From: Cristatella mucedo
Lineage: Eukaryota > Bryozoa > Phylactolaemata > Cristatellidae
Direction of reading: 5' to 3'
DNA: 64,000 nt
NCBI GenBank assembly: GCA_009760855.2
Contig: WPIO01000001.1
Span: 3,804,001-3,868,000, forward strand
The notes under the pieces: model-generated
Told to the model about the DNA's origin: nothing
The model's input: the letters and a program-made list of their open reading frames with translations, nothing else
Database searches by the model: none
Translations under genes and position numbers: made by a program
In this document: one piece after another, positions 5,856 through 60,029 of the stretch
Layout: every line of letters begins with the position of its first letter
Position numbering within the stretch: position 1 is the stretch's first letter

Positions 5856-5882
5856 CTATAAAAGCGCTGCCGGATATAAAAG
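5856..5882 (+). promoter_or_regulatory. Twin TATA-box core promoter
   Basis: Two near-identical elements, CTATAAAAGCGCT at 5856 and ATATAAAAGCGCT at 5874, lie 18 bp apart. They are 87 to 113 bp upstream of the first ATG of the secreted precursor gene at 5969. A start site about 30 bp downstream of either box would leave a short 5' UTR of roughly 55-80 bases. Function is inferred from position and consensus. Confidence 0.6.
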
Positions 5883-5968: not shown

Positions 5969-7451
5969 ATGTTTTACTCGCTGCGGGTGCTCGCGATCGC
6001 CGCAGGTGCGCTCTGCCTGGCGATTGCAGCAGACGGTAAGTGGCGAACGCACTTGTCGATCTCGTCGGCGCGCGATACTGCCGCCCCCCCCCCAGCCTCA
6101 ACCCACGCCAAGTATCCGTCCCAGCCGCAACTTCACGAGCTGAGCCATCCCGAACTCCGCACCAACTTACGCTGCTAAAGCAGTTGGGCTGGCCGGATCG
6201 ATCGCTCGCCACCGACAGTGCGGTAGTGGGCGAGGAGGTCGCCGAGATCGCCGCCGCGCGGCCGCCGCGGAGCCGGCTGCGACCGAGCGCCGCGCCACTT
6301 CCCTCGGCCGCTGCTTCGCGCGCCGCCCGCCGCTGCGACAGCGCCGCGTCGCTGTCGCAGGGGCCTCTCAGTACCCGACGACCACGGACAGCGGCGGAAT
6401 AATGCGAAACGGCAGAGGAGCCTCCGTCGCGGTCAGACGGCGAGACTTGCCCACCGCCACGCCGACTTTGCCCACAAAGCAGCCGGCCGTAGCGCAGCAG
6501 CCGGCTGGCGGCGCGCACTCGATCGGAGTGAGAGACAGCCTCCCGAACGTGCCGCCGGCCACGCCGGCTGCTGCGCCCTCTTCGCTTCCGACGGCGGCTA
6601 GCGTCGCCGCGTCGGGCGCTTCGGCCGTGACAACGTCGCCCGGCGTCCCGCGAGCAAAGAGAGCGCTATCAACTGGGCCTCTGCCGACGATGGCGGCTGC
6701 AGGTGAACCGCTGGCTGCGCGCGCGCTTGCAGTTATCGCGATCGCTCGGAAATCGATGGCAATTGATGCACGCGTGCACCTGTATTTAATACGCAAGTTT
6801 GCGCTCTTTGCCGGCTCAGGGAAACGGAAGCGGCAGGGAGGCGGCGTCGCCAACACTACGGTAACAAATACCAACACCACATCGCAGACGAGCTCCATTT
6901 CGGGTGAGTCAAGTGCCACAGCGGTCGGTGGTGGCTGCAGTTGAACGGCCGGCTTCTCGGCGTGCCTGAAGCCCGTATTTTTAAAAGAAATATTCTCGCT
7001 CTTTGCCGGTCCAGGAAAACGAAAACGACAGGTCGGTGGCATCGCCAACACTACGTTAACGAACACCAACACCACGTCTCAAACGAGCTCCATCTCAGGT
7101 ACGCGAGTCCCAATTCACTCCGCAGTGCGGTGCATGATGGGCGCTAGCGAGCAACTTCGGCCTGCGCCATTCCGGCGCGAACGGCTGCAATCAATGACGC
7201 CGGCATCGTGTCGCGCAGGTGGCCTTGGCAAACGAAAACGGCAGCAGGCGAACGTCGCCCCGACCGTTGCCGCAGCTACTATCACCACGACCCCAACGAT
7301 CGGCTCGCCTCAGACGGCGAACACTGGAAAGAGACAGGCGCCTGCGCTTCGGCGGGTTTCTGTGACTACGACCACGGCGTCAAATCTTGCCGGTCCGCGC
7401 ACCGGCATTTCCAGCAGTCACGACGACGACGACGATGGCGACCACGACTAA
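5969..7451 (+). CDS. Secreted peptide-precursor-like protein with repeated GKRKRQ processing sites (5 exons, 269 aa)
   Basis: I recognise no family. Exons by splice consensus and phase: 5969-6035, 6361-6702, 6820-6903, 7015-7098 and 7219-7451 (TAA). All four introns are phase 1, with donors GTAAGT, GTGAAC, GTGAGT and GTACGC, and the total is 810 nt. Residues 1-20 form a signal peptide (MFYSLRVLAIAAGALCLAIA). Residues 24-119 are Pro/Ala/Ser/Thr rich. A furin-like RAKR lies at 120-123. GKRKRQ occurs at 137-142, 165-170 and 196-201, and GKRQ at 229-232. In neuropeptide precursors such sites mean dibasic cleavage, amidation from the Gly and pyroglutamate from the Gln. The released segments would be Thr/Asn/Ser rich with several N-X-T sequons. 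The C-terminus is an acidic run (HDDDDDGDHD). Exons 3 and 4 are 84-bp duplicates. A glycosylated mucin-like secretory protein is an alternative. The gene structure is well supported; the peptide-hormone role is inference. Confidence 0.75.
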
Positions 7452-7534
7452 CGAAAGCTTGACGCCGTGCTAGCGCTGCCGCTCGGCGCACGCGACGCCA
7501 GTTCGGCATGCGACTGGTGTCGTCGGCAAGGGGC

Positions 7535-7813
7535 GTGCTGCGAGCTAGCTGGCGGCGGTCGTGCGGTGCTGCGAGCTAGCTGGCGGCGGTCGTGCGGTGC
7601 TGCGAGCTAGCTGGCGGCGGTCGTGCGGTGCTGCGAGCTAGCTGGCGGCGGTCGTGCGGTGCTGCGAGCTAGCTGGCGGCGGTCGTGCGGTGCTGCGAGC
7701 TAGCTGGCGGCGGTCGTGCGGTGCTGCGAGCTAGCTGGCGGCGGTCGTGCGGTGCTGCGAGCTAGCTAGCGGCGGTCGTGCGGTGCTGCGAGCTAGCTAG
7801 CGGCGGTCGTGCG
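7535..7813. repeat. Minisatellite, nine 31-bp units
   Basis: Exactly nine tandem copies of a 31-bp unit starting GTGCTGCGAGCTAGCTGGCG. The first seven are near-identical and the last two carry CTAGCTAGC instead of CTAGCTGGC. Each unit contains a GCTAGC palindrome. It begins 83 bp after the stop codon of the precursor gene, so it may lie in its 3' UTR. Confidence 0.95.
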
Positions 7814-8110
7814 GGGTTGGCGGGTGGGTAGGCGGCGGCATGCGGTGGGCGCTTGGCGGCATTTTTTGTCCACAGCGCGGCGGACGGGGAAGCAGCGGCG
7901 TGTAAAGCTTGGCGGACTGCCGCCTCAATTTAGTACTTACTGTTTGACAGCGATATAAACCCTATTGATAAAATGTTCGACTGACTCATTTTACGCAGCT
8001 ACATTTTACGCCAGCTAACTACGATTTGGTGAAATCACGGCAACCGCAGCAACGGCGAAGTTTGTTCGCCTTTTTAGTTTCCACACGCTTGCCTCGCCTC
8101 GCGTTTGCCT

Positions 8111-9898
8111 CCGTGTTTGAAGCGAGACTCAGTCCGTCCGTGTTTGAAGCGAGACTCAGTCCGTCCGTGTTTGAAGCGAGACTCAGTCCGTCCGTGTTTG
8201 AAGCGAGACTTCAGTCCGTCCGTGTTTGAAGCGAGACTTCAGTCCGTCCGTGTTTGAAGCGAGACTTCAGTCCGTCCGTGTTTGAAGCGAGACTTCAGTC
8301 CGTCCGTGTTTTGAAGCGAGACTTCAGTCCGTCCGTGTTTTGAAGCGAGACTTCAGTCCGTCCGTGTTTTTTTGAAGCGAGACTTCAGTCCGTCCGTGTT
8401 TTGAAGCGAGACTTCAGTCCGTCCGTGTTTTGAAGCGAGACTTCAGTCCGTCCGTGTTTTGAAGCGAGACTTCAGTCCGTCCGTGTTTTGAAGCGAGACT
8501 TCAGTCCGTCCGTGTTTTGAAGCGAGACTTCAGTCCGTCCGTGTTTTGAAGCGAGACTTCAGTCCGTCCGTGTTTTGAAGCGAGACTTCAGTCCGTCCGT
8601 GTTTTGAAGCGAGACTTCAGTCCGTCCGTGTTTGAAGCGAGACTTCAGTCCGTCCGTGTTTTGAAGCGAGACTTCAGTCCGTCCGTGTTTGAAGCGAGAC
8701 TTCAGTCCGTCCGTGTTTGAAGCGAGACTTCAGTCCGTCCGTGTTTGAAGCGAGACTTCAGTCCGTCCGTGTTTGAAGCGAGACTTCAGTCCGTCCGTGT
8801 TTTGAAGCGAGACTTCAGTCCGTCCGTGTTTTGAAGCGAGACTTCAGTCCGTCCGTGTTTTGAAGCGAGACTTCAGTCCGTCCGTGTTTTGAAGCGAGAC
8901 TTCAGTCCGTCCGTGTTTTGAAGCGAGACTTCAGTCCGTCCGTGTTTTGAAGCGAGACTTCAGTCCGTCCGTGTTTTGAAGCGAGACTTCAGTCCGTCCG
9001 TGTTTTGAAGCGAGACTTCAGTCCGTCCGTGTTTTGAAGCGAGACTTCAGTCCGTCCGTGTTTTGAAGCGAGACTTCAGTCCGTCCGTGTTTTGAAGCGA
9101 GACTTCAGTCCGTCCGTGTTTTGAAGCGAGACTTCAGTCCGTCCGTGTTTTGAAGCGAGACTTCAGTCCGTCCGTGTTTTGAAGCGAGACTTCAGTCCGT
9201 CCGTGTTTTGAACGCAGACTTCACTCCGTCCGTCCGTGTTTGAAGCGAGACTTCAGTCCGTCCGTGTTTGAAGCGAGACTTCAGTCCGTCCGTGTTTGAA
9301 GCGAGACTTCAGTCCGTCCGTGTTTGAAGCGAGACTTCAGTCCGTCCGTGTTTGAAGCGAGACTTCAGTCCGTCCGTGTTTGAAGCGAGACTTCAGTCCG
9401 TCCGTGTTTGAAGCGAGACTTCAGTCCGTCCGTGTTTTGAAGCGAGACTTCAGTCCGTCCGTGTGTTTTGAAGCGAGACTTCAGTCCGTCCGTGTTTTGA
9501 AGCGAGACTTCAGTCGTCCGTGTTTTGAATCCGCAACAGAGTCCGTCCGTGTTTTGAAGCGAGACTTCAGTCCGTCCGTGTTTTGAAGCGAGACTTCAGT
9601 CCGTCCGTGTTTTGAAGCGAGACTTCAGTCCGTCCGTGTTTTGAAGCGAGACTTCAGTCCGTCCGTGTTTTGAAGCGAGACTTCAGTCCGTCCGTGTTTT
9701 GAAGCGAGACTTCAGTCCGTCCGTGTTTTGAAGCGAGACTTCAGTCCGTCCGTGTTTTGAAGCGAGACTTCAGTCCGTCCGTGTTTTGAAGCGAGACTTC
9801 AGTCCGTCCGTGTTTTGAAGCGAGACTTCAGTCCGTCCGTGTTTTGAAGCGAGACTTCAGTCCGTCCGTGTTTTGAAGCGAGACTTCAGTCCGTCCGG
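8111..9898. repeat. Minisatellite, about 62 units of 27-30 bp
   Basis: A 1.8-kb head-to-tail array of the unit TCCGTGTTTTGAAGCGAGAC followed by TTCAGTCCG. Variants differ mainly in the T-run length (TTT or TTTT, once longer) and in CTC versus CTTC after GAGA. Variants are grouped: short units at the left end, TTTT units in the middle, TTT units near 9240-9430, and TTTT again to the right end. Scattered damaged units occur near 9210 and 9510. Frames open through it are artefacts of a unit length that is not a multiple of three. Confidence 0.95.
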
Positions 9899-10539
9899 TT
9901 CTGCCTTGCTAATAAGGACTGGTAGCTTTTAACTGACTAGAGAGAAAATGTTGACCATTTTTGGAAGGTTGTCCGCACCAAAATAGCGATGGTCGGAAAC
10001 CTTCAATTTAGACGTCTAAAAGAGCAGAGCCTGCGCTTGGATAAATTTGGAGCGATAGCCACGCGATGAGCTACCTGCACACGCTGGGAGCTAAAACGAT
10101 GCCGCCCCCCTGCAGCGCTCCAGAAAGGATAGTGCGAAGCGCTGAAGCCTCCCCTTCCAGCGCTCCGGCATCGGCGTCCACCCACCTTCCCTCTGCAGCG
10201 CTCCCGCTGTGGCTTCCCCGGCAGCGCCGCTCCTGCTCCCTCGCTTTGGCGCTACAGTTCCGGTTCCGTCCACTCAAGGGCTGCCTTCCTCCCGAGTCAG
10301 GCCACCGTATTCAGGCGTCGCTGCTGCCAATAGCACGCTTGCAGCACAACAAAAAGACTAATGTCTGTCATCAACAAAATGCTTAGGACTTCCCGAGATG
10401 CAACTAATAAGGGACACATCGGTCAACAAAGCCTACGGCGGTAAAGAAAAGCGTGCAAATAAGTGAAAGATGGGTCAGCAAATTGACAAACGTACAGCGG
10501 TCAGAATGTAATTCAAACCGCGGGAAACGACTGATGCAC
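9899..10539. other. Intergenic, no gene seen
   Basis: A GC-rich patch at 10,090-10,300 repeats the decamer CAGCGCTCC several times and stays open in several frames on both strands. No domain, splice pattern or promoter is evident. Confidence 0.4.
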
Positions 10540-11856: not shown

Positions 11857-13280
11857 CTACGCTCCGGTCAGCGCCTTCTTTCCGGCGTCGGCAGCAGCAG
11901 CGGCGGCCGGCGGCGGCTGCGGCGGCGGCTCCATCTGCTCCTGGCTGGCCACGGACTGGTCGATGATTTTCTCGAGCGCCTTGGCCCGCTCGGCAACCTG
12001 CTGCGCGGACACGCCCCGCAGCTGGTACACCGTCACCTGGCCCGCGCTATCGCCGACCAGTATCGTTTCCGAGTTGCTGGCAAACGTCACCGTGGTCTGC
12101 TTGGCTCCCGACGACGTGCTCGAGATGACGGGATCGAGTGTGCTCTGCGCCAGGTCCCACACTTCGACGGCGCTGTCGTTGACGCAGGCGAACACCGTCG
12201 ACGAGTAGGGCGACCAGCAAACGTCGTTCACGGACTTGGTGCTCGAGTTGAAGCTCAGAATCGGCTTCAGCCGGTCCTGGCGCCACAGGCTGCAAGAGAT
12301 CGGGCGGCATCGGCTCGAGCCGTCGGCGCAAGGTCGTTCGCTCCGTCTCTCGCCGCGTAGCTTAGCCGAGCGCGTAGTGCCGCCGGCGCCGCGCCGAGCA
12401 AAGCCAAGCGACCGGAGAGAGCCCGCGCGTGCGCAGAGCAGCGGGCTCTCTCCGGTAGCGGGTGCAGCACGAAGCGAGCGGGTGCAGCGCGTACCGGACG
12501 CTCCAGTCTCCACTGCAGCTGAGGAACACGTCCGGGCAGTGGGGCGACCACTGGATGTGATATACGGGGCCGCCGTGACCGTCGTACGTGTCGAGGTACT
12601 GCTCGTTGTAGGAACACGAACATTTGTGTATGTATCCTTCCTCGGTGCCCGCCAAGTACCTGCAGCAAGACAGCGCCCGACCGTCGCCACTCGGTGTACG
12701 TAGAGCCTGGCTGGCTCCGCCACCGGCCCGCCGCGCCGTACGGTACGCGCTAGCTCGCAAGTTTGTCGCCCTCGTTTCGCGAACTCGTAACACCTCGCGG
12801 AGGATTCGAGCCGCGCCGACGGACGCCGCTGCAGCGGCGACCGGGTGCCGGAGGGGCGGTGGTGGAGCCGCTGGCGATGCCGGCCGAGCATTCGCTCGCG
12901 GCCGGCCGACGCCAGCTCAGCGCGCGCGCGAGTGCGGACGAATGGGGCTCAGCTCTCGAACGGACGAGCCGGCGGGCTCGCGCTCGGCGACCGGTCCGTG
13001 CGCGGGCACGACGGCGGCGAAGACTGGCTCGCACGCGGCGGCCGGCGGCGGCGGCGGCAGCGCTCACATCAGGCCGTCGACGGCGCTGAAGGCGAACGTG
13101 AAGCCGCCGGCGAGGCGCGATATGAGCGCGTCGCCCTTCTTCTCCTTGGCCTTGCCGCCGATCTGCTGCTTCATCTGCACGCGCTTGAGCTTCATCAGGT
13201 CGCCGCACTCGAAGCCCTTGCGGATCGTCCACTGCGACACGCGGCCGTCGGCCGAGATGGACACGATCGTCTCGTGCCCG

Positions 13281-13311
<31 letters not shown>

Positions 13312-16300
13312 GCTCGCCCTTGTCCTTCTCCACCCAGCGCAGCTGCCAGACGGGCGCCGTGTGGCGGCCAGGCGAGTCGGTCGTGTCGAGCACGGGCTCG
13401 GCGGCGGCGGCGGCGGCGGCGGAAGCGGTCGGCGCGCGCACGTTGTGGATGGCTATGTTGCCGTCGTACGTGCCGACGGCGAGCAGGTTGGGATTCCTGG
13501 TGGAGAAGTCGATCGCCGTAACGCCCGCCTCGCACTGGTAGAGGCGCTCAGGGTGCTCGGGGTTCTTCAGCGACCAGCAGCACACCAGGCCGCTCTTCTG
13601 GCCGGTGAACTCGAACTGTCCGTAGCCGACCGCGATCAGGTCGGGGTTCGCCTTGTTCCATGCGCAGCAGCTCACGTTGCGACCCTTCGTTATCGGACTG
13701 GCGTAGCACCAGAGCCGCTCGAGGCTCGGCCCGCTGCCGCCGCCACCCGCCGCCGCCGCCGTCGTCGACGAGACGACCGCGGCGACGGCGGCAGACGACG
13801 ACGACGTCGTCGTCACGGTCACCGTCGCGGAGATGGCGACCGCCGACAAGTCTGCCTTCACGTCGCCACCGCCGCCGCGCGCGATCGGCACGAAGTCGCG
13901 GTACGAGGCGAGCTTGGGCTGGTACGTGTTCACGTTAACCACGCGTTCCATGACGAACAGGTCGTCGCGAAGCTTGGCGGAAGAGAGCAGCTCGCGCTCT
14001 CTCTGCGCGCGCGCCTCCTTCTGCGAGTCCTCGGAAGCGTCGGCCGCCGCGGCGGCGGCGGCGGCGGCAGCGCTAACGGGCAGCGACATCACGGAATCGC
14101 TCGCCTCGCTCTCCTCCACGATGCGGCTGATCTGAGTGCCTGAAACGGCGGCAGCGGCGGCGGCTGTGCGAGCGGGCGCGCGTTGCTAAGCGCCCGGCGT
14201 TCTCGCCGAGCTCCAGGTCCGAGCTGCGACTTCACTCGACGAGCGGCCGGCAGCCGTGGCGGAGAGCGCCGCCAAGGCGAGGCACCGCGTTAATTTGAGG
14301 AGTCGGTCGTGCAGAAGGCGCTACGGGCGGGCGGGCGAGCGAAAAATCGAAGGCCCGACGGCTTCGCGGATCGTCGGCGGCCGTCGCTGGCGCTCGCTCG
14401 CTCGAGATGACGCTCAAATTGTCAGATTTTTAACGTTCTTGAAGTGGCTAGGTCTGTAGAGTGCACATACTAAGTCATGCACAAAGTCTCAGCTGCACAA
14501 TGAAAAAGAGGCTTACTAAATTAGCCAGAGTTCAACTAATATTAATTTCGCAGTTAATAATAATACATTCTGTATGGCCCCTCAGATAACGCTATCTTTT
14601 TCTAGGCACTTTACAGTTGCTGTTTCCTGAATTATAGCGGCTAGAAACCTGTAAGAGTCGTCCGTTGCCACCTCAGGCTTCGACTTTGGCAGCTTCAGTC
14701 TATCGCGGTTTTTTCAAATATATTCATTAAAAAGTCGATCGAGACTAACTACAAAAAGGTTCGATTTTTAAATTAGGATCCATAATTCACGGAAATTTGC
14801 TTATCGCGGTAGAGTCTGCAACTGACAAATTGCGATAAATGAAGGACGACTGTAAGCGATCATCTAAGGTTAATGCAGTGCAAAAGTGTAAGCCATGCGA
14901 TTCTCAATAGCTTACAGCAGTTGAGTTGACATGAGCTCTGAGCTTTTAGCCGCACGAGTTTTTTGTACGCCACATCTGCTACTAGACGCCAGGGACGCTC
15001 CATCGCTGTCGAATAGACATGCCCACGCTAGGTAGGTTTTTATGTATATGGACTCGTAGGGTCATAAGGTCACTCTTGGTAGGGTCATAAGGTCACTCTT
15101 CGTTGCTGCCGCTACCTGCTACTGTCAGCATACCTGGTCGTATTGATGCGCCACCTACTAGTCCCTAACCGTGATTCCAAGGCTCGGGCTTTCGCAGGTA
15201 TTAGTCGACCGTCGGTTGAGACTAGCGCCGTTATGAGCGCGGTTATTTTCGGTCTAGTTCCGTCCGGACGTGGAAGCCGCTGCACCCCGAATTTGAAATA
15301 GTAAGCACTCCCACAAGCTTAAAGTAAGTGCGCTCGTGTAATATTGGCGGCGGAGTGAGGCAGCGGGGGCCTGCAGTATTTGCTTGAGATGTGCCTCCAA
15401 CCACAGCTTCACTGCATGACCATTACTCGATAAGAGAATCGCTTCTAGCAGTAAGCGTCAAATCAGCCATCAAAAACGAATCCATTTTTTGCAAATAATT
15501 AGATTTACATAAACGTCGATCCACACCACCTTGGAGCATATAGGCGCGTTTAGCTGCTGAACAAGCGATGTAGAGCGCATCCCCTAAATAACTTTGCGTG
15601 CGAATGTATACAATATAATAGTTATCAAACAATACTCCGAAGGCGCGTTCGTAGCTTTGAAACGCCGCCGTCCATCTGCTGGGAAAATCGGCTAGGAAAT
15701 GCAGATGGAGCAGTGAAATTGTGAGGAATTTTTTTTCATAAGCACCAGCAGGCATCGCCGGTCTATTTATTAAGTTAAAGGCGAGGGTTGGCAACCGGCC
15801 TTAAGTCTCGGGCACGCACTCCGTCTCTCGTCGTTTAGCATTAAACAGTATTCCACAATATTCCGCGGGTAAGCCGTCGCCTCCACACACCCCCCCCGTC
15901 CCCGCCGTCGAAGCACGCACTATAGAGCAAGCAAGGAGGCGAAGGCGCAAACGGAAGTGTCGACTCTCGAGTGGCGAGATCATTCCCTAGGCGCGCAGTG
16001 CGCGGGCGAGCGAGAGAGACTCGAGGAGATGTCGGCGAGACGGAGGCGCTCAGCAGAGAAGACTTAACGAGACGCCTACCGACCGAGCTCGTAGCGCGCA
16101 CGAGCGGCGGCGGCAGCGGCGGCTGCAGCGGCGGCAGCTCACCCTTGACGGTGGACGTCTGATGCAAGCTGCGGCGTCCTTTCGAGTCCTCGGATGCCGA
16201 CTCGTCCTTGGCTGCCGCCGCCGACGCTGCGCCGCCTTTCGTGCTCATCGGCCGGCTGGACGGGGCGGAGAGCTCGCGGCCGCGCTCGGGCCCCGGATTG

Positions 16301-17244
16301 TCACGCTCCTCCTGAAGCCGCTTCACCGAGTCGAACGTGTCGTACATGTCCCACGACGTGGCGGTGACGGCCACGTCGCTCGTCGATATCTTGTCGGTCT
16401 GCACGACCTTGAGCTTGAGCGGGTCGTTGAACGTGTTCATGCCGCGCTCGGCGTACAGGTCGTTGCCGGCGCGCGTCTTGCACACGTCGCGGTAGTGCTC
16501 GTTCTTCAGGTTGACGAGCGGCGCCTCGGCGCTCTCGGTCGACACGCTCGTGCCGACCAGGTCGAGCAGGAAGATCGTGTCCGTCTCACTGAGCACGATC
16601 TCGACGCGCCGGCTCAGCACGGCGTCGGTGAGCGGGTCGTCCCTACCGTCGTCCGACTTCATCGTCGCCGCCAAGCTGCTCAGGTCGCCAACAGCGGCCG
16701 CTGCTCCAGGAGCGGCGGCGGCGGCCTGCTCCGGGTGGTCCTCACTCAGCGACAGGCCGTCGGCCTCGGACGGCGCCACCGAGGCGCCGATGACGGAGCG
16801 GGTGAACGGGCCGCCGCCGAACATGCTGGCGTTCACCGTGCCGCCGCCGCCCGTCTGGTAGATGGACGCTTGCGACATGAACTCGGAAGGCGTGCCGCCC
16901 TGCGAGCTGTCAATCAGTATGTTGCTCTGGTTCTTCTTCACCGAGGCCGGATCGACGAGCAGCAGCGGCAGAGGCGTCACGTCGGCGCCGGTCTCCGGGT
17001 CGACCACGCGCACCGGCGGGCGGTACGGCGGCTGCAGCTTTTCCTTGTCACCGGCGTTGGCAAACGTGCGGCCGCTCTTCGACGACGACAGGATCGTGCG
17101 CGACGCGCCGCCAACGCGGCTGCGGCTCACCGACTGGCTCAGCGCCACCGTTTGCACCGACTTCCTCGACATCACACTTTGATTGACCTTGTCTTGCTGC
17201 TTGCCAGCGCGGGCGTTCTTCGCGGCGGCCACCGAGGCGTCCAT
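11857..17244 (-). CDS. DNAI4: Dynein axonemal intermediate chain 4 (WD-repeat protein 78), four exons, 923 aa
   Basis: Exons on the minus strand: 17244-16143, 14139-13068, 12659-12495 and 12289-11857. Donors are GTGAGC, GTGAGC and GTACGC; acceptors are TTTCAG, CTGCAG and TTGCAG; phases 1, 2 and 2 match at every junction, giving 2,772 nt. The N-terminal half (residues 1-367) has family signatures such as DVTPLPLL, ILIDSSQGGTPSEFMS and ETDTIFLLDLVGTSVSTESAE. The rest is the WD40 propeller: TKGRNVSCCAWNKANPDLIAVGYG, SGLVCCWSLKNPEHPERLYQ, YLAGTEEGYIHKCSC, VFLSCSGDWSVRLW and VNDVCWSPYSSTVFACVNDS. DNAI4 is needed for assembly of inner-arm dynein f (I1) in motile cilia. Oddities are poly-Ala and poly-Gly runs in exons 1, 2 and 4, absent from most homologues, and very high GC, which may explain a length somewhat above the vertebrate protein. 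The ATG at 17244 opens the frame and is followed by MDASVAAAKNARAGKQQ. Intron 1 (2 kb) holds a CR1 tail. Confidence 0.93.
14557..14628 (-). mobile_element. CR1 family B 3' tail inside DNAI4 intron 1
   Basis: Read in plus orientation, AATAATAATACA...CTCAGATAACGCTATCTTTTTCTAGGCACTTTACAGTTG is the reverse complement of a decayed family B 3' end, with its ATT tail, the CTCTGA loop and the TGTAAAG arm in order. Only the last 70 bases are recognisable. Confidence 0.5.
15057..15102. repeat. Short direct repeat, two 22-24 bp units
   Basis: GTAGGGTCATAAGGTCACTC appears twice in tandem inside DNAI4 intron 1. AGGTCA within it resembles a nuclear-receptor half-site, which is only a consensus match. Confidence 0.6.
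15423..15794 (-). other. Open frame of 123 codons in DNAI4 intron 1
   Basis: The frame runs from ATG to TAA on the same strand as the host gene and has no motif, transmembrane segment or splice context I recognise. Its base composition is AT-richer than the flanking exons. A chance open frame is the default reading; a nested gene cannot be excluded. Confidence 0.12.
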
Positions 17245-17615
17245 GATTGGTCGCTGAGCGCTCTATCGAATGCCTGCGTGCGAGCGGCCCGTGCGAACGT
17301 CTGTAGCGGGTTGCAGCGTCTACCCAGCGGGTACTGTAACCATGGTCGCCGGGCTGCGGTTTGACCGGAACTGCCGTAAAACGGCCCTCAACCTGCCCAC
17401 CAGGTCGGCACAGACCGATAAATACGAGCCTAGGGGGTGACAGGTAACTGGTCAAACAGTAAAACATAAGCTAAATTATCTTGTGTGTAGCTTTTTTCCG
17501 TTACAGTACGCTCTTTAGCCTCAAGGAGGCAGTGATGTTAACCACACTTGGTGTAGGGAGATAACTCCTGTATGTGGAGACTGCCCACTGTTGATCCGTC
17601 AATCAGGCAAAGCTA

Positions 17616-20480: not shown

Positions 20481-20504
20481 AAAGGCAAGGTTTAGTTTCG
20501 CCCT

Positions 20505-30406: not shown

Positions 30407-30601
30407 CAGTGCGATCTCAGTTTGTTGTAGAGGGCAGATCTGTGCGCCATACCTTTCTCGTTGTGAGAGACCTCGTCGTTGACATGATCTTGGGAACCGA
30501 TTTTCTAACCTCACAGCGGGCTCAAATACAAATTCCAGGAGGCCTCAAAGAAAGGTTGCCCTCATTTTAAATTGCAACGGTAGGATTGCAATACGGCGGC
30601 A

Positions 30602-31722
30602 GTGGCTAGCCTCGTGGAGCAGGACTCAGCATTAGAGCTCGAGACGCGATGTTTGGTGCCGCAGTTCGACGCGGATGATGACACGATAGATATACCACTC
30701 TACCCGCAGCCATACAGAGAAGTGGTCGAGAGGTTTCGAGCCCTCTTCCGGCGCCAACTAGGTTCAACTGATCTTGTCTATCAACATATTCCAACAGGTC
30801 ACAGCGCACCAGTACGCGTCCCTGCGAGACGAATTCCGCTGCATTTGCGAGACAAGATCATGGTGCAGCTTAATACTATGCTAGAGCAGGGTATCATCAA
30901 GCCGAGCTCAAGCCCGTGGCTGGCGCCAGCTGTTTACACGCCTAAGAAAAATGGCGAAGTGCGTATAGCAGTAGACTATAGAGAGCTTAATAAACGTACT
31001 GCAAAGGAGGCTTATCCCTTGCCGTCACCGGACGAAATTCAGGACCACCTCCATGGCGCCAGCGTCTTCAGCACTCTGGACATGAATTCGCGATACTGGC
31101 TGCGGTTCATCCCGACGATGTCCAAAAGACGGCATTTACGCCCGGGCCAGGACTTGGTGCATTCGCCTTCTTAAAAATGCGATTTGGATTATCCGGGGCT
31201 CCGGCCACATTCCAGCGGTTAATGGACTCGGTTTTGAGCGATTTACCCTTCGTTTATATTTATTTGGACGACGTGGTGGTCCACAGCTGCAGCGAGGTGG
31301 AGCACATCAACCATTTGAGTATGGTGTTTTCCAGGCTGCAGAAGGCCGGATTGACGCTGTCCGGTGGTAAATGCCATATTGCGCAGGCGGAAGTGAAATA
31401 CCTGGGGCATGTCTTTGACAGAAACGGCATGCGCCCTGACCCGGAGAAAGTGTGCCAAGTCACCGACTGGCCGGCGCCGACTTCGGTGTCGGAGCTTCGC
31501 GCGTTTCTGGGCTTGGCGTCCTACTATCGCCGGTTCATCAAGGGCTTTGCTGAGTTGGCCGGCCGCCCCTTGGCATGCACTGCTTGCAACGGAGACGCCA
31601 TACACTTGGGAGCAGACGCAACAACAGCACTTCGAGCTATTGAAGGGGGCACTGGTAACGGCCCCGGTGCTTGCCTACCGGACGACTGCCGAGCCCTTCG
31701 TCGTCTCGACCGACGCCAGTGA
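30602..31722 (+). pseudogene. Gypsy reverse transcriptase, frameshifted
   Basis: The first part has the fingers and palm (GIIKPSSSPWLAPAV, KKNGEVRIAVDYRELNKRT, FSTLDMNSRYW). The second frame begins at 31,177 with FGLSGAPATFQRLMD, the catalytic YIYLDDVVV, KYLGHVF and FLGLASYYRRFIKGFA. A frame break lies between 31,100 and 31,180 and another near 31,610. Confidence 0.9.
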
Positions 31723-32070
31723 CCAAGGTCTTGGTGCGATATTGGAGCAAGGAGGCCGAGTGCTGGCGTTCAAGAGCCGCGCCTTGTCTCCTAGTGAACG
31801 AAACTATGGCACCATCCAAAAAGAGTGTCTCACAATCATATACGCCTTGAAGGAGTTCAGGCACTACCTCCTGGGCCGAAGATTCGAGGCTAGAACCGAT
31901 CACAATCCGCTTGTGTGGCTTAACGGGCAGAAAGCACAAGGGATTCTGACACGATGGGCTGTCGCCTTGCAGGAATTCGAGTTTGACATCACATACAGGA
32001 GAGCGGAGCTTAACACTCATGCAGACGCTCTGTCGCGCCGGCCAACCGAGGACCTGCCAGCTTGTCTCGT
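31690..32070 (+). pseudogene. Gypsy RNase H domain
   Basis: In the frame open from 31,409: FVVSTDASDQGLGAILEQ, YGTIQKECLTIIYALKEFRH and RTDHNPLVWL, followed by DITYRRAELNTHADALSR. The catalytic Asp, Glu and Asp are all present, so this domain is better preserved than the rest. Confidence 0.88.
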
Positions 32071-32289
32071 CGAGGTTCGGCCGGTGGAAGAGGTGAGCGA
32101 CGTCAGAGAGATGCAGCGGCGAGACCCGTTTTTGAAGGCTGTGGCAGAGGCACTGCAGGCCGGTTCAAGCCGAGCACCACGTTGGACCCGCCATCCATTA
32201 CGTCGGTTCCGAAAAATGTGGGGCCAGCTGAAACTGGTCGACGGCGTCCTCTACCGCTACTTTCGCCCCCGACCAGGAGCCGAATGTAG

Positions 32290-33480
32290 ATATGCTTTGG
32301 TCGCGCCGCCAGCCCGCCGAGAAGAACTGCTCAGACGACATCACGACGACAGCGGTCACCAAGGCGTAGAACGGACATACGACCGACTACAAGACCACGC
32401 TTATTGGGTCAATATTGTCGGTCATGTCAGGTATGCCAATCGGTTAAAGGGACCCAGCTCGCTAACGCTCCGCTGGTACCGATACCTGTAGGACGGCCGT
32501 GGGACATGGTAGCTGTAGATATCTTGAAGGTTGCCATGTCAGCTCGCGGCCGCGAATACCTACTGGTATTGCAGGACAGCTTCACGAAATGGCTCGAGGC
32601 CGTGCCTTTACGAGACACATCGACGGAGACAGTCCGGACGGCCCTGTTAAATATTTTTGTTCGTTTTGGTATGCCGCGCTTTCTGCACTCTGACCGTGGC
32701 AGCAATTTCGAGGCAGAGGTAATTACCACGCTCTGCAAGGCTTTCGGCATAAGCAAGACGCGAACGACGCCTTACACAGGGCGACGGCATGGTAGAAAGA
32801 GACAACGGAACACTACTTACAATGCTGCGAACCTCATGCCTACACTCAGCCGGGCAGTGGGAGAGTAATCTTCCACTGCTTTTGTTCGCTTATAGGACGG
32901 CTCGGCATCAAGCTACGGGCTATAGCCCCTTCGAGCTGATGTTTGGCCGCGAGCCGCAGTGCCTTGATAACCTTGCGGAGAGCGCACAATACGCAGGCAC
33001 TACACCTGCAGCGCATTGCCACTCAATGAGCGAAAAGCTCGCCGAATTCCGCGAGCTAGCTGATGCACAGCTGGCTCAAAGTGCCGAAGAAGCGCGGAGC
33101 CGGCAGCAACGGAAAACACCACCCACTTATCGTCCCGGAGATCCGGTGTGGCTGTGGGATAGCCGACCGAGGCACAAGCTCGCACCGCGATGGCTCGGCG
33201 GCTGGAGAGTAGAAACGGTTCTGGGACCGGTCACCTTGCGCATCATAAATGAAGCCGGCCACCGGAAGGTCGTGCATCTGGATAAGGTCAAGATGCGAGT
33301 TCCACGGCTACAAGAGCCTACTATCGACGTGACCCCCGAGTGGATCGAGACCCAACGAGATGCTGGGAGAGAGAGGCCTCGAATTCTGGCTCGGGGCCAG
33401 CGCCCGCTGAGGCAGTCGAGAGCAGCGCCAGCCAGCGAAGCCGACGGCTGCACGAGCTTCGGCCCGCGAGCGCCGCCCCG
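32290..33480 (+). pseudogene. Gypsy integrase, frameshifted
   Basis: The zinc-binding HHCC module is split between two frames: RHHDDSGHQGVERTYDRL, then CRSCQVCQ in the frame starting 32,404. The catalytic core follows with VAVDIL, QDSFTKWLEA and FLHSDRGSNFEAEV. The last part of the core continues in the frame at 32,789 (LLLFAYRTARHQATGYSPFE), followed by a chromatin-binding-like GPVTLRI/VHLDKVK region. Confidence 0.88.
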
Positions 33481-33530
33481 CCCCCTGCCTGCCAGGCTGG
33501 CGGACTGTGTACTCTTTTTTGACATTCCAT

Positions 33531-33541
33531 GGGGGAAGGGA
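33531..33541 (+). other. Polypurine tract
   Basis: GGGGGAAGGGA immediately precedes the LTR start TGTTGTG, the expected primer for plus-strand DNA synthesis in an LTR retrotransposon. Confidence 0.75.
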
Positions 33542-34209
33542 TGTTGTGTGTGCCTGTTGCTTCTCGGCCACCGGTGTGTGCCCCGCTCTCGGCGGGTGGT
33601 TGGGCTGTTGGCTCCGTGCGGAATTTGATAATAATAATACTGTACTTGATAAAGCGCCCTCAGAGAACTCAATCTCTTTCTAGGCGCTTTACATTTGCAG
33701 CAAAGAGAAATGCAATTGAATGGTAAGTAGAATCATGCTTGAAAAACAAACAAAATGAATAACATGGTTAGGGGTGACATGCACAGGGTCAGCATGCAAA
33801 TGTGGTTATTGACAGCATGCACAGTGTCAGCACGCATAAGCCCGTGAAGGACGAATCACAGGGACCCACTAAATGCTGTCCTAAACAGGTGTGTTTTTAA
33901 GTTCTTTTTAAATGTGGTTAAGTCAGGGGACGTTCTGACGCAGGTCGGGAGGGAGTTCCAGGCTTTGGGAGCATGTGGGCTGATGTTTGGGCGGTCGGCT
34001 CGGGGCTGCCTTTGATGTGGGCATGTGGCCCACCATGGGGGCTCACCACGGATGCACTCCCTTATCTGTGGTGAGTCAGCCCCTAGCTTATATAAATGTA
34101 CCCGCTGGGGAATAAAGAGAGTCTCGTTCACTGCTCACGTTCGTCCGCTCGTGTCTTCGTGTCTCTGTGAGATTCCACTAGCGCTGCTACAGCCAGAGAC
34201 ACAGTAACA
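33542..34209 (+). repeat. Gypsy 3' LTR, interrupted by a CR1 insertion
   Basis: It begins TGTTGTGTGT and ends ACACAGTAACA, giving the short TGTT...AACA inverted ends. The right half has TATATAAA at about 34,090 and AATAAA at 34,111, consistent with U3 promoter and R-region polyadenylation signal. Without the insertion at 33,627-33,985 the LTR would be about 310 bp. Confidence 0.8.
33627..33985 (-). mobile_element. CR1 family B 3' end nested in the gypsy LTR
   Basis: The ATAATAATAATA tail and hairpin (AAAGCGCCCTCAGAGAAC ... TTCTAGGCGCTTT) in reverse orientation are followed by sequence aligning base by base with 56,225-56,580. It postdates the gypsy insertion. Confidence 0.92.
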
Positions 34210-42290: not shown

Positions 42291-43555
42291 CATGCGCAAA
42301 ATCGTGATCGTTGCAATATAACGTGCTATTATTTGCATGAAGGCGGTTGAGCCCTTGAGAAAGTTCACTGGCTGAACCATTCCTGTACGGTTAACTTTTC
42401 CAGGGCGTTTGAAGAATACATAGACGAACTCCCCACTTTCCACTAGTATGAGCCACTAGGTACAAGAACGGGTTGACCTTGGCGCGAGACAAGCTACAGA
42501 GCATTAGGGAATGATGCTGCCTCGAGATCCGAGTTGTCATAGTTGTCATCCTGCCCCTATCGATCAAACAGTGAGTATACAAGCGTTGCAGTGGTTAGGA
42601 CTGACCTGTACCAGGTTGCTGCAGCTAATATCTGGACAGACTTCGAAGGACCAAGCTCTTCTAGCTGTTCTGGAATTAAGTCAATTGCAGTGTTCTTCAT
42701 GTGCACCCAGCAAACCGCCATCCCGTTCTGCATCTTGAAGCCTCGTAGTCTCAACATCATGTGCACGTGCGTTGTAATTCCCAAGTTTCAAAAATGTGGC
42801 GGCTTTTCCGTGGGTTTGGATTCTTGGGTCTCAGGGCAGACTGAAGCTGTGAGATCCAATGTCATCGTCACTGTGTACTGCTCTTGCAGGCTTTGCCGAC
42901 TTTGCGCCTGCTGCACTCACTCCCAAGCCGCCTGTCGTACAGCCGATGTGGATCTTCCAGGAGCTGCGGCTGCCGGCGTTGGTGGCGGTAATCGTTTCGT
43001 TTCACCTGCTTGTGTCGTCCATTCAGAGCAGGGTCCCCTGAAAGCCGAGCTCAGCCAGACGGCTCAGCCAACTGTGGACACAGTGCTTTACTTCATGCAA
43101 CCACTGTGGCCACTAAGTGATGTGCAGGCCAAAAAGGGCATGTCTGGCCTAGCCAGTTAGCAGCTGGCGTAGCAGCGTACGTCACGTGTTTCATGCGATG
43201 CTGCACGTACTGAGCAACAGGGAGGCTTGATGGCAGCGATCCTAGCAATGCATCAGTGGTAGCCCTTTTCAAAGCAGCACTGGCAACTGTTACTGCGTGT
43301 GTCATCCAACAGTCACCAGCTGAGATGGCGCACGGCTCAGACAGGTCAGCTGCTCTCAGGGTAGACCTGGTGGGTGTGAAAGAATTTCGATTGGACACTA
43401 GTGGGATGCTAGTGTTTCTGGCTTGCTGTCAAATGGGTCATTTGCAGTTAGCTGACCCCCTTCCTGCTTTGGACCTACGGCAGTGCCTGACTGTTTGCTG
43501 CAACAGCCTTGCAGCCTTAGTGGCAAGTTTCCTCTGGCTTATCACTTCACAGAGT
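42291..43555 (+). repeat. Duplicated block U2 (copy c), right part with Pro-rich frame
   Basis: It aligns with 59,005-60,050: GAACCATTCCTGT, CACTAGGTACAAG, GGACTTGGATTCTTGGGTCTCAGGGC-type and CAAGCCGCCTGTC. The plus-strand frame RFVSPACVVHSEQGPLKAEL, SQTAQPTVDTVLYF and QAKKGMSGLAS ends at TAG, whereas U2d continues. Confidence 0.75.
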
Positions 43556-45475
43556 CAGCATTGCTTAGGGTGTACAACGACCTACTTAAGAATGCAGACA
43601 TTGGTAGAGTATTACCATTTACTGGGCGATGCTGAGAGGTCTGACTCCCCAGATATTAACGGCTCAGCCGAAAAGTTTTCAGCCATCTTTATGGACAGAA
43701 TTGGGCACATTCGTGCCCCCATTAAGCCCCCTCCGACTAAACCAACTGTGGAATCGAAACCTGTAACCTTCCTTAAAAGTTTTACCGAGATTTCTGCATG
43801 CCATGTGGCTACCTTAATCAGGTCTAGCAAAAAGAGCTCGTCTCCTGAAGACCCTACACTATCATCTCTGTGGTCTCCACTGGCAGACCAACCCTGCCAT
43901 AACCGAGATTTCTGCTTCTTTGGTAAAAGGGGTCGTCCCCGAGTCCTTCAAATCGGCAATCGTTAGACCCATACTTAAAAAGCCTGGATTGGATACAGAG
44001 GTCCTAGCAAACTATCGTCCAGTTTCCCTTCTTCCGTTCTTATCAAAGATTCTTGAAAAAATTGTTGCTAAGCAGCTAGTTGAACATATTGAAAATAATG
44101 GAATGTCAGAAACATTTCAATCGGGGTTCAAGAGGCAGCACTCCACTGAAACTGCTCTCCTCCGTGTTAACAATGACATTCTACGTGGCAGCGATGACGG
44201 GAATGTCACTGCCCTAGCTCTGCTAGATCTTTCAGCTGCCTTCGACACCATTGATCACGATTTCCTACTTGAACGATTGAGAACAACGATCGGTCTGGCA
44301 GACGAGGCACTGGAATGGTTTAAATCGTACTTGTTTGATCGTGTTCAATCCGTGTCGTGTGAGGATCAGATCTCACACACGAGACCGATCACCTGTGGAG
44401 TCCCTCAAGAATCCGTCCTCGGTCCCTTGCTGTTCTCCATTTACAATCAACCTCTGGGAAAAGTGATTAAGGCTCATGGAATTGGATATCACTTTTGTGC
44501 TGACGATACTCAGCTGTATTTGTCATTCAAACCGTCGGAATCTGCTGCTGCAACTGAGAAACTGAATGCTTGCCTTGCCGACATTCAATCCTGGATATAG
44601 GAAAACATCTTGAAACTAAATGACGATAGAACCGAACTGCTGCTCATAGGACACCCTAAGCGTGTGGCTGGATTAAAAGGCTTTGCTCTTCTAATAGGTG
44701 ATGCTGTTGTGTTGACCATCACCACATGCTCGAAATTTAGGTGTCGTTTTCGACAGCTGTCTCGATTTTAAAAGATTCAATCAGAAGACTGTTTCTACAG
44801 CTAGCCATCACGTCCGATCCCTATCCAAGATTAGGAGCTGTCGTCTACAGTGGCTTGCAAAAAATTTAACTAGCTCCTTAGTTCTGTCTCGGCTTGATTA
44901 TTGTAATTCCCTTTTGGCTGGGCTACCAAAGAAAGCAACTAGGCCACTGCAGCTGACTATGAATATGGCTGCAAGGTTAGCCTTCAAGTCCCAGCGGTTT
45001 GAGCACGTGTCTCCTTTGCTTAATGAGCTAGGATGGCAGCAGGTTGATCAACGGATACAGAGCAAAGTTCTTATGCTGACCCACAAGGTCCACCACGGCT
45101 TGGCTCCTTCGTACCTAGCTGAACAGCTGCACCAGTTTCAGCCTCTTCGCACCCTCAGATCATGTATCGACAATAAATTAGCTGTTCCATTCCTCTGCTT
45201 AAAGACCGTCGTCGACAGAAGCTTTATCTCTGCAGGTCCTAGACTGTGGAACTGGCTTCCACAATTCTTACACGGCAACTACTCTCCTTCTGCTGACTAT
45301 GGCTCATCCTCTTCAGAGGTCCTAAGCTGATACTCCCTACCTCTACTCTCTCCTGACTCTGCTATGCTTCCCACTTTCTCTTTGTTTCGTGAGACGAAGT
45401 CTATTAGTTACTACCGAATGCATACCAAAAGCCGCTTAGGCTGTGAGTGCACAACTCTCCTGAGTAACGCCCAGT
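43556..45475 (+). mobile_element. CR1-like retrotransposon, family A, 5'-truncated
   Basis: Most complete family A copy. Before the reverse transcriptase lies a linker with FSAIFMDRIGHIRAPI. The RT has [67 protein letters not shown] (usual GVPQGSVLGP with G to E) and [14 protein letters not shown]. After an in-frame stop come LSRLDYCNSLLAGLPKKATR and the C-terminal LWNWLPQF. The RT frame opens only after a frameshift at about 43,920. Not active. Confidence 0.93.
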
Positions 45476-58999: not shown

Positions 59000-59285
59000 A
59001 TGTGTGAAAAATCTCGATCGTCGCAATCAAACATGCTATTATTCGCGTGAAGACGTATGAGCCCTCGAGAACGGTCATTGGCTTGACCATTCCTGTGTAG
59101 TTAACTTTTTCAAGGGTGTGGTACGAATGCATGGCCAAACTCCCCTCGGTCCACTACTCTGACCCACTAGGTACAAGGACGTGTTGACCATGGCGTGAGG
59201 CCACTTGCACAGTGTTAGCGAATGTTGCTGTCTCGAGATCCTAGTTGTCGTGTGCTGCTTTTGTTAGTCCCTTTGCAAGGTCGGT

Positions 59286-60029
59286 ATGCAAGCATTGCAA
59301 GAAGGCAGTTTCTCTGTGGGCTTGGATTCTTGGGTCTCAGGGCAGACTGAAGCTGTGAGATCCAATGTCATCGTCACTGTGTACTGCTCTTGCAGGCTTT
59401 GCCCAGCTTGCCAGCTTTGCGCCTGCTGCACTCACTCCCAAGCCGCCTGTCGTACAGCCGATGTGGATCTTCCAGGAGCTGCCGGCGTGGACGTTGTTAA
59501 TCGTTTTGTTTCACCTGCTTGTGTCATCCATTCACAGCAGGATCCCCTGAAAGCCGAGCTCGGCCAGACGGCTCAGCCGACAGCAGATGCAGCGCTTCAC
59601 TTCAAGCCACCATTGTTGCCACCAAGTGATTTGCCAGCTAAAAAGGACCTGCCTGGCCCGGCCAGTCAGCTTCAGACACCAGTATGGCACATGTTTGACG
59701 CAATGCTTTGTGTACTGCAAGGGACTGCACCGCTTCATGGCAGTGACTCTAGCAAGGTATCAACAGTACGTTTTTTCTCTCAGGGCAGAACCGGAAGTAG
59801 TGACGTCATCCAGCAGCCACCGGCAGCAATGGCACACGGCGCAGACAAGCCAGCTATTCTCAGGGGAGACCTGGTGGGTCTGAAAGAAATCGCCTTTCTT
59901 GCAGCTAATGAGTTTTTCGATAGGACACCCTATGTGGTGGCTTGCTGTCAGCTGCGTCTTTGGCAGTTGGCTGACCCCCTTACCTGCTGTCGGTGGCAGC
60001 AGTGTGTGCCTGCTCGCTGTAACCTGTAA
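59286..60029 (+). CDS. Conserved Pro-rich open frame of unknown function (U2d copy)
   Basis: 247 open codons. The conserved part is RFVSPACVIHSQQDPLKAEL, TAQPTADAALHFKPPLLPPS and KKDLPGPASQLQT, shared with interrupted frames at 42.9-43.2 and 37.8-37.95 kb. Changes among copies often hit third codon positions. The stretch between 59,290 and 59,480 is also open in a second frame, and exon limits are unclear. No domain recognised; it could be a disordered protein or noncoding DNA. Confidence 0.3.
   Translation: MQALQEGSFSVGLDSWVSGQTEAVRSNVIVTVYCSCRLCPACQLCACCTHSQAACRTADVDLPGAAGVDVVNRFVSPACVIHSQQDPLKAELGQTAQPTADAALHFKPPLLPPSDLPAKKDLPGPASQLQTPVWHMFDAMLCVLQGTAPLHGSDSSKVSTVRFFSQGRTGSSDVIQQPPAAMAHGADKPAILRGDLVGLKEIAFLAANEFFDRTPYVVACCQLRLWQLADPLTCCRWQQCVPARCNL

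Follow-up and report, generated by a model that had tools for sequence, protein, structure and literature searches.

A candidate orphan prepropeptide with repeated amidation-type processing sites and a selected, tandemly duplicated exon in the bryozoan Cristatella mucedo

We analysed a 64,000-nucleotide stretch of the Cristatella mucedo genome (hereafter the window) in which five exons on the forward strand splice into a frame of 810 nt, made up of 269 codons and a closing TAA. All introns are of the GT..AG type and all exon junctions fall in phase 1. The modelled gene confirms the five in-frame exons with a signal-peptide-like start described by the first-pass annotation, which had been made from the letters of the DNA, and encodes 269 residues. 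The features of the gene are as follows.

5857..5880, + strand: a pair of TATA boxes (TATAAA, starting at 5857 and 5875), a probable core promoter, 112 and 94 bp upstream of the ATG
5969..6035, + strand: exon 1, opening with the ATG and a segment like a signal peptide (residues 1-21, at 5969-6031); splice-joined translation, hydropathy, donor with 8 of 9 consensus bases
6361..6702, + strand: exon 2, propeptide rich in Pro, Thr and Ala, RAKR site (6651-6662) and peptide A, ALSTGPLPTMAAA (6663-6701); translation, motif scan
6820..6903, + strand: exon 3, KRKR at 6822-6833 followed by peptide B, QGGGVANTTVTNTNTTSQTSSIS, at 6834-6902; translation, motifs, selection test
6904..7014, + strand: intron 3, with an in-frame TGA and an acceptor end like that of intron 2; frame scan, intron alignment
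7015..7098, + strand: exon 4, a tandem copy of exon 3, with KRKR at 7017-7028 followed by the larger part of peptide C, QVGGIANTTLTNTNTTSQTSSISGGL; translation, motifs, exon comparison
7219..7451, + strand: exon 5, end of peptide C (7219-7226), GKRKR (7227-7241), peptide D (7242-7325) and GKR (7326-7334); translation, motifs
Within 7219..7451, + strand: 3' part of exon 5, acidic tail E (7335-7448), then the stop codon TAA; translation
7954..7972, + strand: weak variant motifs resembling poly(A) signals (TATAAA at 7954, GATAAA at 7967); scan of eight variants

The signal peptide was called from hydropathy and from small residues before the likely cut; residues 8-19 give the best 12-residue hydropathy of the precursor (2.6). 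Donor sites match 7 or 8 of the 9 consensus bases. When eight poly(A)-signal variants were scanned across 7452-10400, the only hits were TATAAA at 7954 and GATAAA at 7967 and 10040; neither AATAAA nor ATTAAA occurs in 7452-10400. In a test of codon usage, for which 835 codons from the neighbouring gene served as training set, the modelled frame came out best, or tied for best, among the three forward frames in all five exons; in the same test, exon scores overlap intron scores and some reverse frames score higher. Coding support for exons 1, 2 and 5 consists of the open frame, splice sites, phase and motifs.

The next gene, on the minus strand at about 11857-17262, encodes axonemal dynein intermediate chain 4 (DNAI4/WDR78) and has long open exons with Ala- and Gly-rich runs. 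Its best named relatives come from Owenia (55%) and from Tubulanus, Lingula and molluscs (45-54%). A careful tree (22 rows, from 21 of 74 matches) separates it, together with the other spiralian rows, from six deuterostomes (100/100) and sets it on a long branch beside Lingula and one unnamed sequence at only 82/83; a quick tree (37 rows, 36 of the 74 matches) did not resolve its placement. Neither tree includes ecdysozoan or non-bilaterian rows. With the best database matches, the trees make a spiralian source likely. Two minisatellites lie downstream of the precursor gene, one at 7535-7814 (31-bp unit, 9.0 copies), which starts 84 bp past the precursor stop, and one at 8110-9897 (29-bp unit, 62.1 copies). 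Elsewhere in the window, open frames resembling the pol region of a Gypsy-type retrotransposon occupy 30584-33628 (+ strand), with RNase H and integrase zinc-finger domains in 31397-32491. A non-LTR-type reverse transcriptase, which we take to be L2-like, lies at 43818-45330 (RVT_1 in 43818-44600), and similar-looking frames occur near 20496, 38721, 53914 and 56462. The open frames at 59268-60029 and 42543-43966 are alike by eye and are probably parts of a repeat. Scans of the 64,000 nt for tRNAs and for Rfam families returned 0 matches each.

The translated precursor has a set of basic sites. RAKR lies at residues 120-123, GKRKRQ starts at residues 137, 165 and 196, and GKRQ at residue 229, so that all the sites listed in the first-pass annotation were found. 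They delimit segments of 13, 23, 26 and 28 residues and a tail of 38 residues. The annotation had predicted peptides of about 23-29 residues; peptides B, C and D fall in that range, and the 13-residue peptide A comes in addition. A Gly before and a Gln after the basic run are present at four of four GKR sites, which bears out the claimed sequence context for C-terminal amides and N-terminal pyroglutamates, the modifications themselves being predicted; RAKR has neither residue. Eight of the nine lysines sit inside putative processing sites (RAKR, GKRKR or GKR). When the mature part was shuffled 200,000 times, four GKR never arose and a single GKRKRQ was seen in three shuffles. Chance occurrence of the motifs was rejected on these shuffles together with the exon 3/4 substitution pattern described below.

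All four predicted products A-D are uncharged. Peptide A, ALSTGPLPTMAAA-amide, has a predicted mass of 1198.638 Da, and the predicted monoisotopic masses with both caps are 2207.030 (B), 2504.235 (C) and 2706.382 Da (D). Ser and Thr together make up 48% of B, 42% of C and 32% of D, and there are four N-T-T sequons, two in B and two in C; the "glycosylated" of the first-pass annotation is compatible with this sequence, which is as far as it goes. The mature part has no Cys, and a single Tyr is its sole aromatic among Phe, Trp and Tyr. In gel-forming mucins a Ser/Thr/Pro repeat region is accompanied by Cys-rich domains; such an identity was rejected given the mature part without Cys.

Exons 3 and 4 are an 84-bp tandem duplication that aligns without gaps or change in length. 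The two copies differ at 15 sites over 27 codons, distributed 2/1/12 over the three codon positions (hypergeometric P 5.7e-5). By NG86, dN is 0.052 and dS 1.006 (dN/dS ~0.05), and three other methods gave dN of 0.052-0.062 and dS of 0.56-1.99. There are three replacements (G/V, V/I and V/L); when 15 random changes were simulated under neutrality, no more than three replacements and no stop codon came up at a frequency of 1e-5 to 5e-5. Each of the other two forward frames has 13 amino-acid differences. Coding on the reverse strand was considered and rejected: its three frames show 15, 11 and 4 differences, but all three contain stops. Because replacements are few and most changes fall at third positions, the repeated peptides are selected coding sequence. 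The modelled frame of exons 3 and 4 is coding and is selected for the peptide, and the repeat unit is conserved over its whole length.

In exons 3 and 4 the GKRKR starts right at a phase-1 junction, and in exon 5 it starts two codons downstream of one; duplication of a single exon therefore adds one in-frame peptide unit, as exons 3 and 4 show. The exon 5 unit was rejected as a third true copy: it shares significantly with exons 3 and 4 only GKRKRQ, and once that motif is removed its similarity to them is no greater than chance would give (546 and 651 of 1000 shuffles as high). Introns 2 and 3 are alike: in full they score 60, whereas shuffles average 23.3 and none of 500 came as high, but without the last 20 nt the score drops to 32 against a mean of 16.5 (14 of 500 as high). 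Introns 3 and 4 score 37.5 (9 of 500) and introns 2 and 4 score 34.5 (46 of 500). The mutual similarity of introns 2-4 is thus slight outside the acceptor end, whereas exons 3 and 4 align gaplessly.

Searches of proteins, Pfam and PDB turned up no known family for the precursor; the first-pass annotation had called its segments unlike any familiar neuropeptide family. The full precursor had no match at E <= 10 in about 5.8 billion proteins, spiralian ones included, in a search in which only the 7994 candidates that shared the most words with it were scored; the peptide region had no match among the 350 candidates scored from the same library. Since the method needs 5-residue words shared by query and target and is weak for short, diverged or composition-biased peptides, it may miss remote relatives. 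The Pfam search returned two rows below threshold, PHAX_RNA-bd (13.3 bits) and Melittin (9.8 bits), and PDB gave no match at E 1. We rejected a relation to melittin (PF01372): the 9.8 bits, at residues 125-142, compare with a cut-off of 20.6 and an E of 1.1, which is chance level. The two have a KRKRQ stretch in common, which here spans a predicted cleavage site, and melittin was prominent among the matches listed for the KRKRQ string in the literature. The string GKRKRQ had no literature match, which says little since precursor sequences are often confined to figures or supplements. A search of the organism's own genome (572 Mb, 688 contigs) found no second copy: 59 scored candidates gave 14 rows at E <= 10, four of which are the precursor gene itself, and the remaining ten have E >= 1.05. 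With no homolog found, there is no cross-species conservation of peptides or sites to draw on.

The closest parallels in layout are spiralian proneuropeptides. Published surveys list precursors with the same hallmarks that are confined to one species or phylum (PMC3890597, PMC8557429), and mass spectrometry revealed five precursors missed by BLAST and pattern searches (PMC8557429). Platynereis QRIa, QDNa and THDa (PMC3890597) and nemertean PSLamide (PMC8557429) have in common with the Cristatella precursor a signal peptide, basic sites, amidation Gly, pyroglutamate Gln, repeated similar peptides and no known folded domain. The Cristatella precursor differs from them in its predicted uncharged, Thr-rich peptides of 23-28 residues and its tetrabasic sites, and shows no similarity to them by database search, as distinct from a one-by-one sequence comparison. 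We applied the two patterns of the published screen (PMC8557429) to the precursor; both fail at the 25-residue limit, and with relaxed spacing the amidation pattern passes at 28 and the dibasic pattern at 29.

Three other explanations have to be weighed. The precursor could be a polyprotein of small secreted glycopeptides of a mucus, antifreeze or coating type, in which Thr/Ser/Asn-rich segments bear O- and N-glycans and the basic sites merely split the chain. The Ser and Thr content of B-D and the four sequons fit this, and there is a precedent in fish antifreeze glycoproteins, which are made as Thr-rich polyproteins and in codfishes are cleaved at basic residues (PMC8622921). The precursor has the secreted Thr-rich polyprotein and the basic cleavage residues in common with them, but it lacks Thr-Ala/Pro-Ala repeats, or any tripeptide repeat, no gene family was found for it, and it has an amidation context. 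Such a role would have no need of Gly and Gln around the basic run, yet every GKR site has both. Moreover, the repeats are few and there is no second gene copy in the genome as searched, unlike genes for bulk products. We consider this explanation unlikely, though deserving of some weight. We give less credence to an uncleaved, disordered matrix or adhesive protein whose KRKR patches and acidic tail would act as charged binding sites. The basic patches and acidic tail themselves, a mature part without Cys and with a lone Tyr, and a repeat conserved end to end speak for it; the exact Gly-KR(KR)-Gln context, the confinement of all but one lysine to processing sites and the RAKR site upstream speak against it. 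The whole-length conservation of the repeat unit, then, also fits a structural or glycopeptide role.

The gene model itself might be partly wrong, with introns 2 and/or 4 retained or with exons 1, 2 or 5 belonging to other transcripts. Each of introns 2-4 has a length divisible by three, and introns 2 and 4 could be read through without meeting a stop (the chance of an open frame given their composition is 0.25 and 0.34, respectively), so retained-intron isoforms are possible; the overlap of exon and intron scores in the codon-usage test and the slight mutual similarity of introns 2, 3 and 4 point the same way. Against this, intron 3 contains a stop, the donors match the consensus well (7-8 of 9 bases), and introns 2 and 3 are strongly alike at the acceptor end. 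In addition, retaining introns 2 and 4 would bring in Phe and Glu, plus Cys in the case of intron 4, all of which are absent from the mature part. A partly faulty model is very improbable in our judgement.

We therefore favour, with moderate confidence, the reading that the precursor is a taxon-restricted secretory prepropeptide of the proneuropeptide or hormone type, whose products are most likely signals. The gene model, the site context, the confinement of lysines to processing sites, the selection on exons 3 and 4, the lack of a known domain, the TATA boxes and the precedent of lineage-restricted spiralian precursors support this reading. The missing homologs, the failure of the published patterns, an exon 5 unit that resembles the repeat only in GKRKRQ and a RAKR site with neither Gly nor Gln beside it count against it. 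The signal peptide would route the precursor into the secretory pathway, where subtilisin-like convertases would cut it, of the furin type at RAKR and of the PC type at GKRKR and GKR. A carboxypeptidase would remove the basic residues, the exposed Gly would be converted to an amide (by PAM) and the N-terminal Gln to pyroglutamate (by glutaminyl cyclase). The predicted products are A (13 residues, amide only), the doubly capped B (23), C (26) and D (28), and the 38-residue acidic tail; the capped, uncharged peptides would most likely serve as messengers to other cells, and exon-wise duplication would add peptide units in frame. Cleavage, end caps, glycosylation and function of the peptides are all matters that we infer. 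Of the "cleaved, glycosylated secretory peptide family" proposed earlier, the precursor layout survives, with independent support from purifying selection on the repeat unit; the word "family" does not, as this is a single gene with no second copy found in the genome and no homolog found elsewhere.

The Pfam family PF01082 (copper type II monooxygenase) has 30 matches in the organism's own genome. This family also covers dopamine beta-hydroxylase-like enzymes, so the matches are PAM candidates only. Many copper type II monooxygenase matches lie on contig C343 at 708227-921631, perhaps a local gene expansion.

Peptides B-D are longer and richer in Ser, Thr and Asn than amidated neuropeptides are known to be, which also speaks against the favoured reading. 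A tentative and rather doubtful extension is that taxon-restricted, uncharged Thr/Asn-rich peptides, possibly N-/O-glycosylated, with full neuropeptide end-capping and grown exon by exon, make up a class of glycopeptides with signalling or protective roles that lies beyond the neuropeptide families described so far. What is new here is an orphan precursor with an unusual peptide composition; lineage-restricted precursors as a kind are already known. Although the precursor bears the hallmarks of processing and its purifying selection can be measured, our searches found no relative, and it misses one published pattern by 3 residues (28 against 25), which gives grounds for widening such patterns. 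The exact predicted masses are concrete targets for detection. A tandem exon duplication can serve as a within-genome test of coding without related species, and orphan peptide precursors are easily overlooked by homology searches or by searches with narrow spacing.
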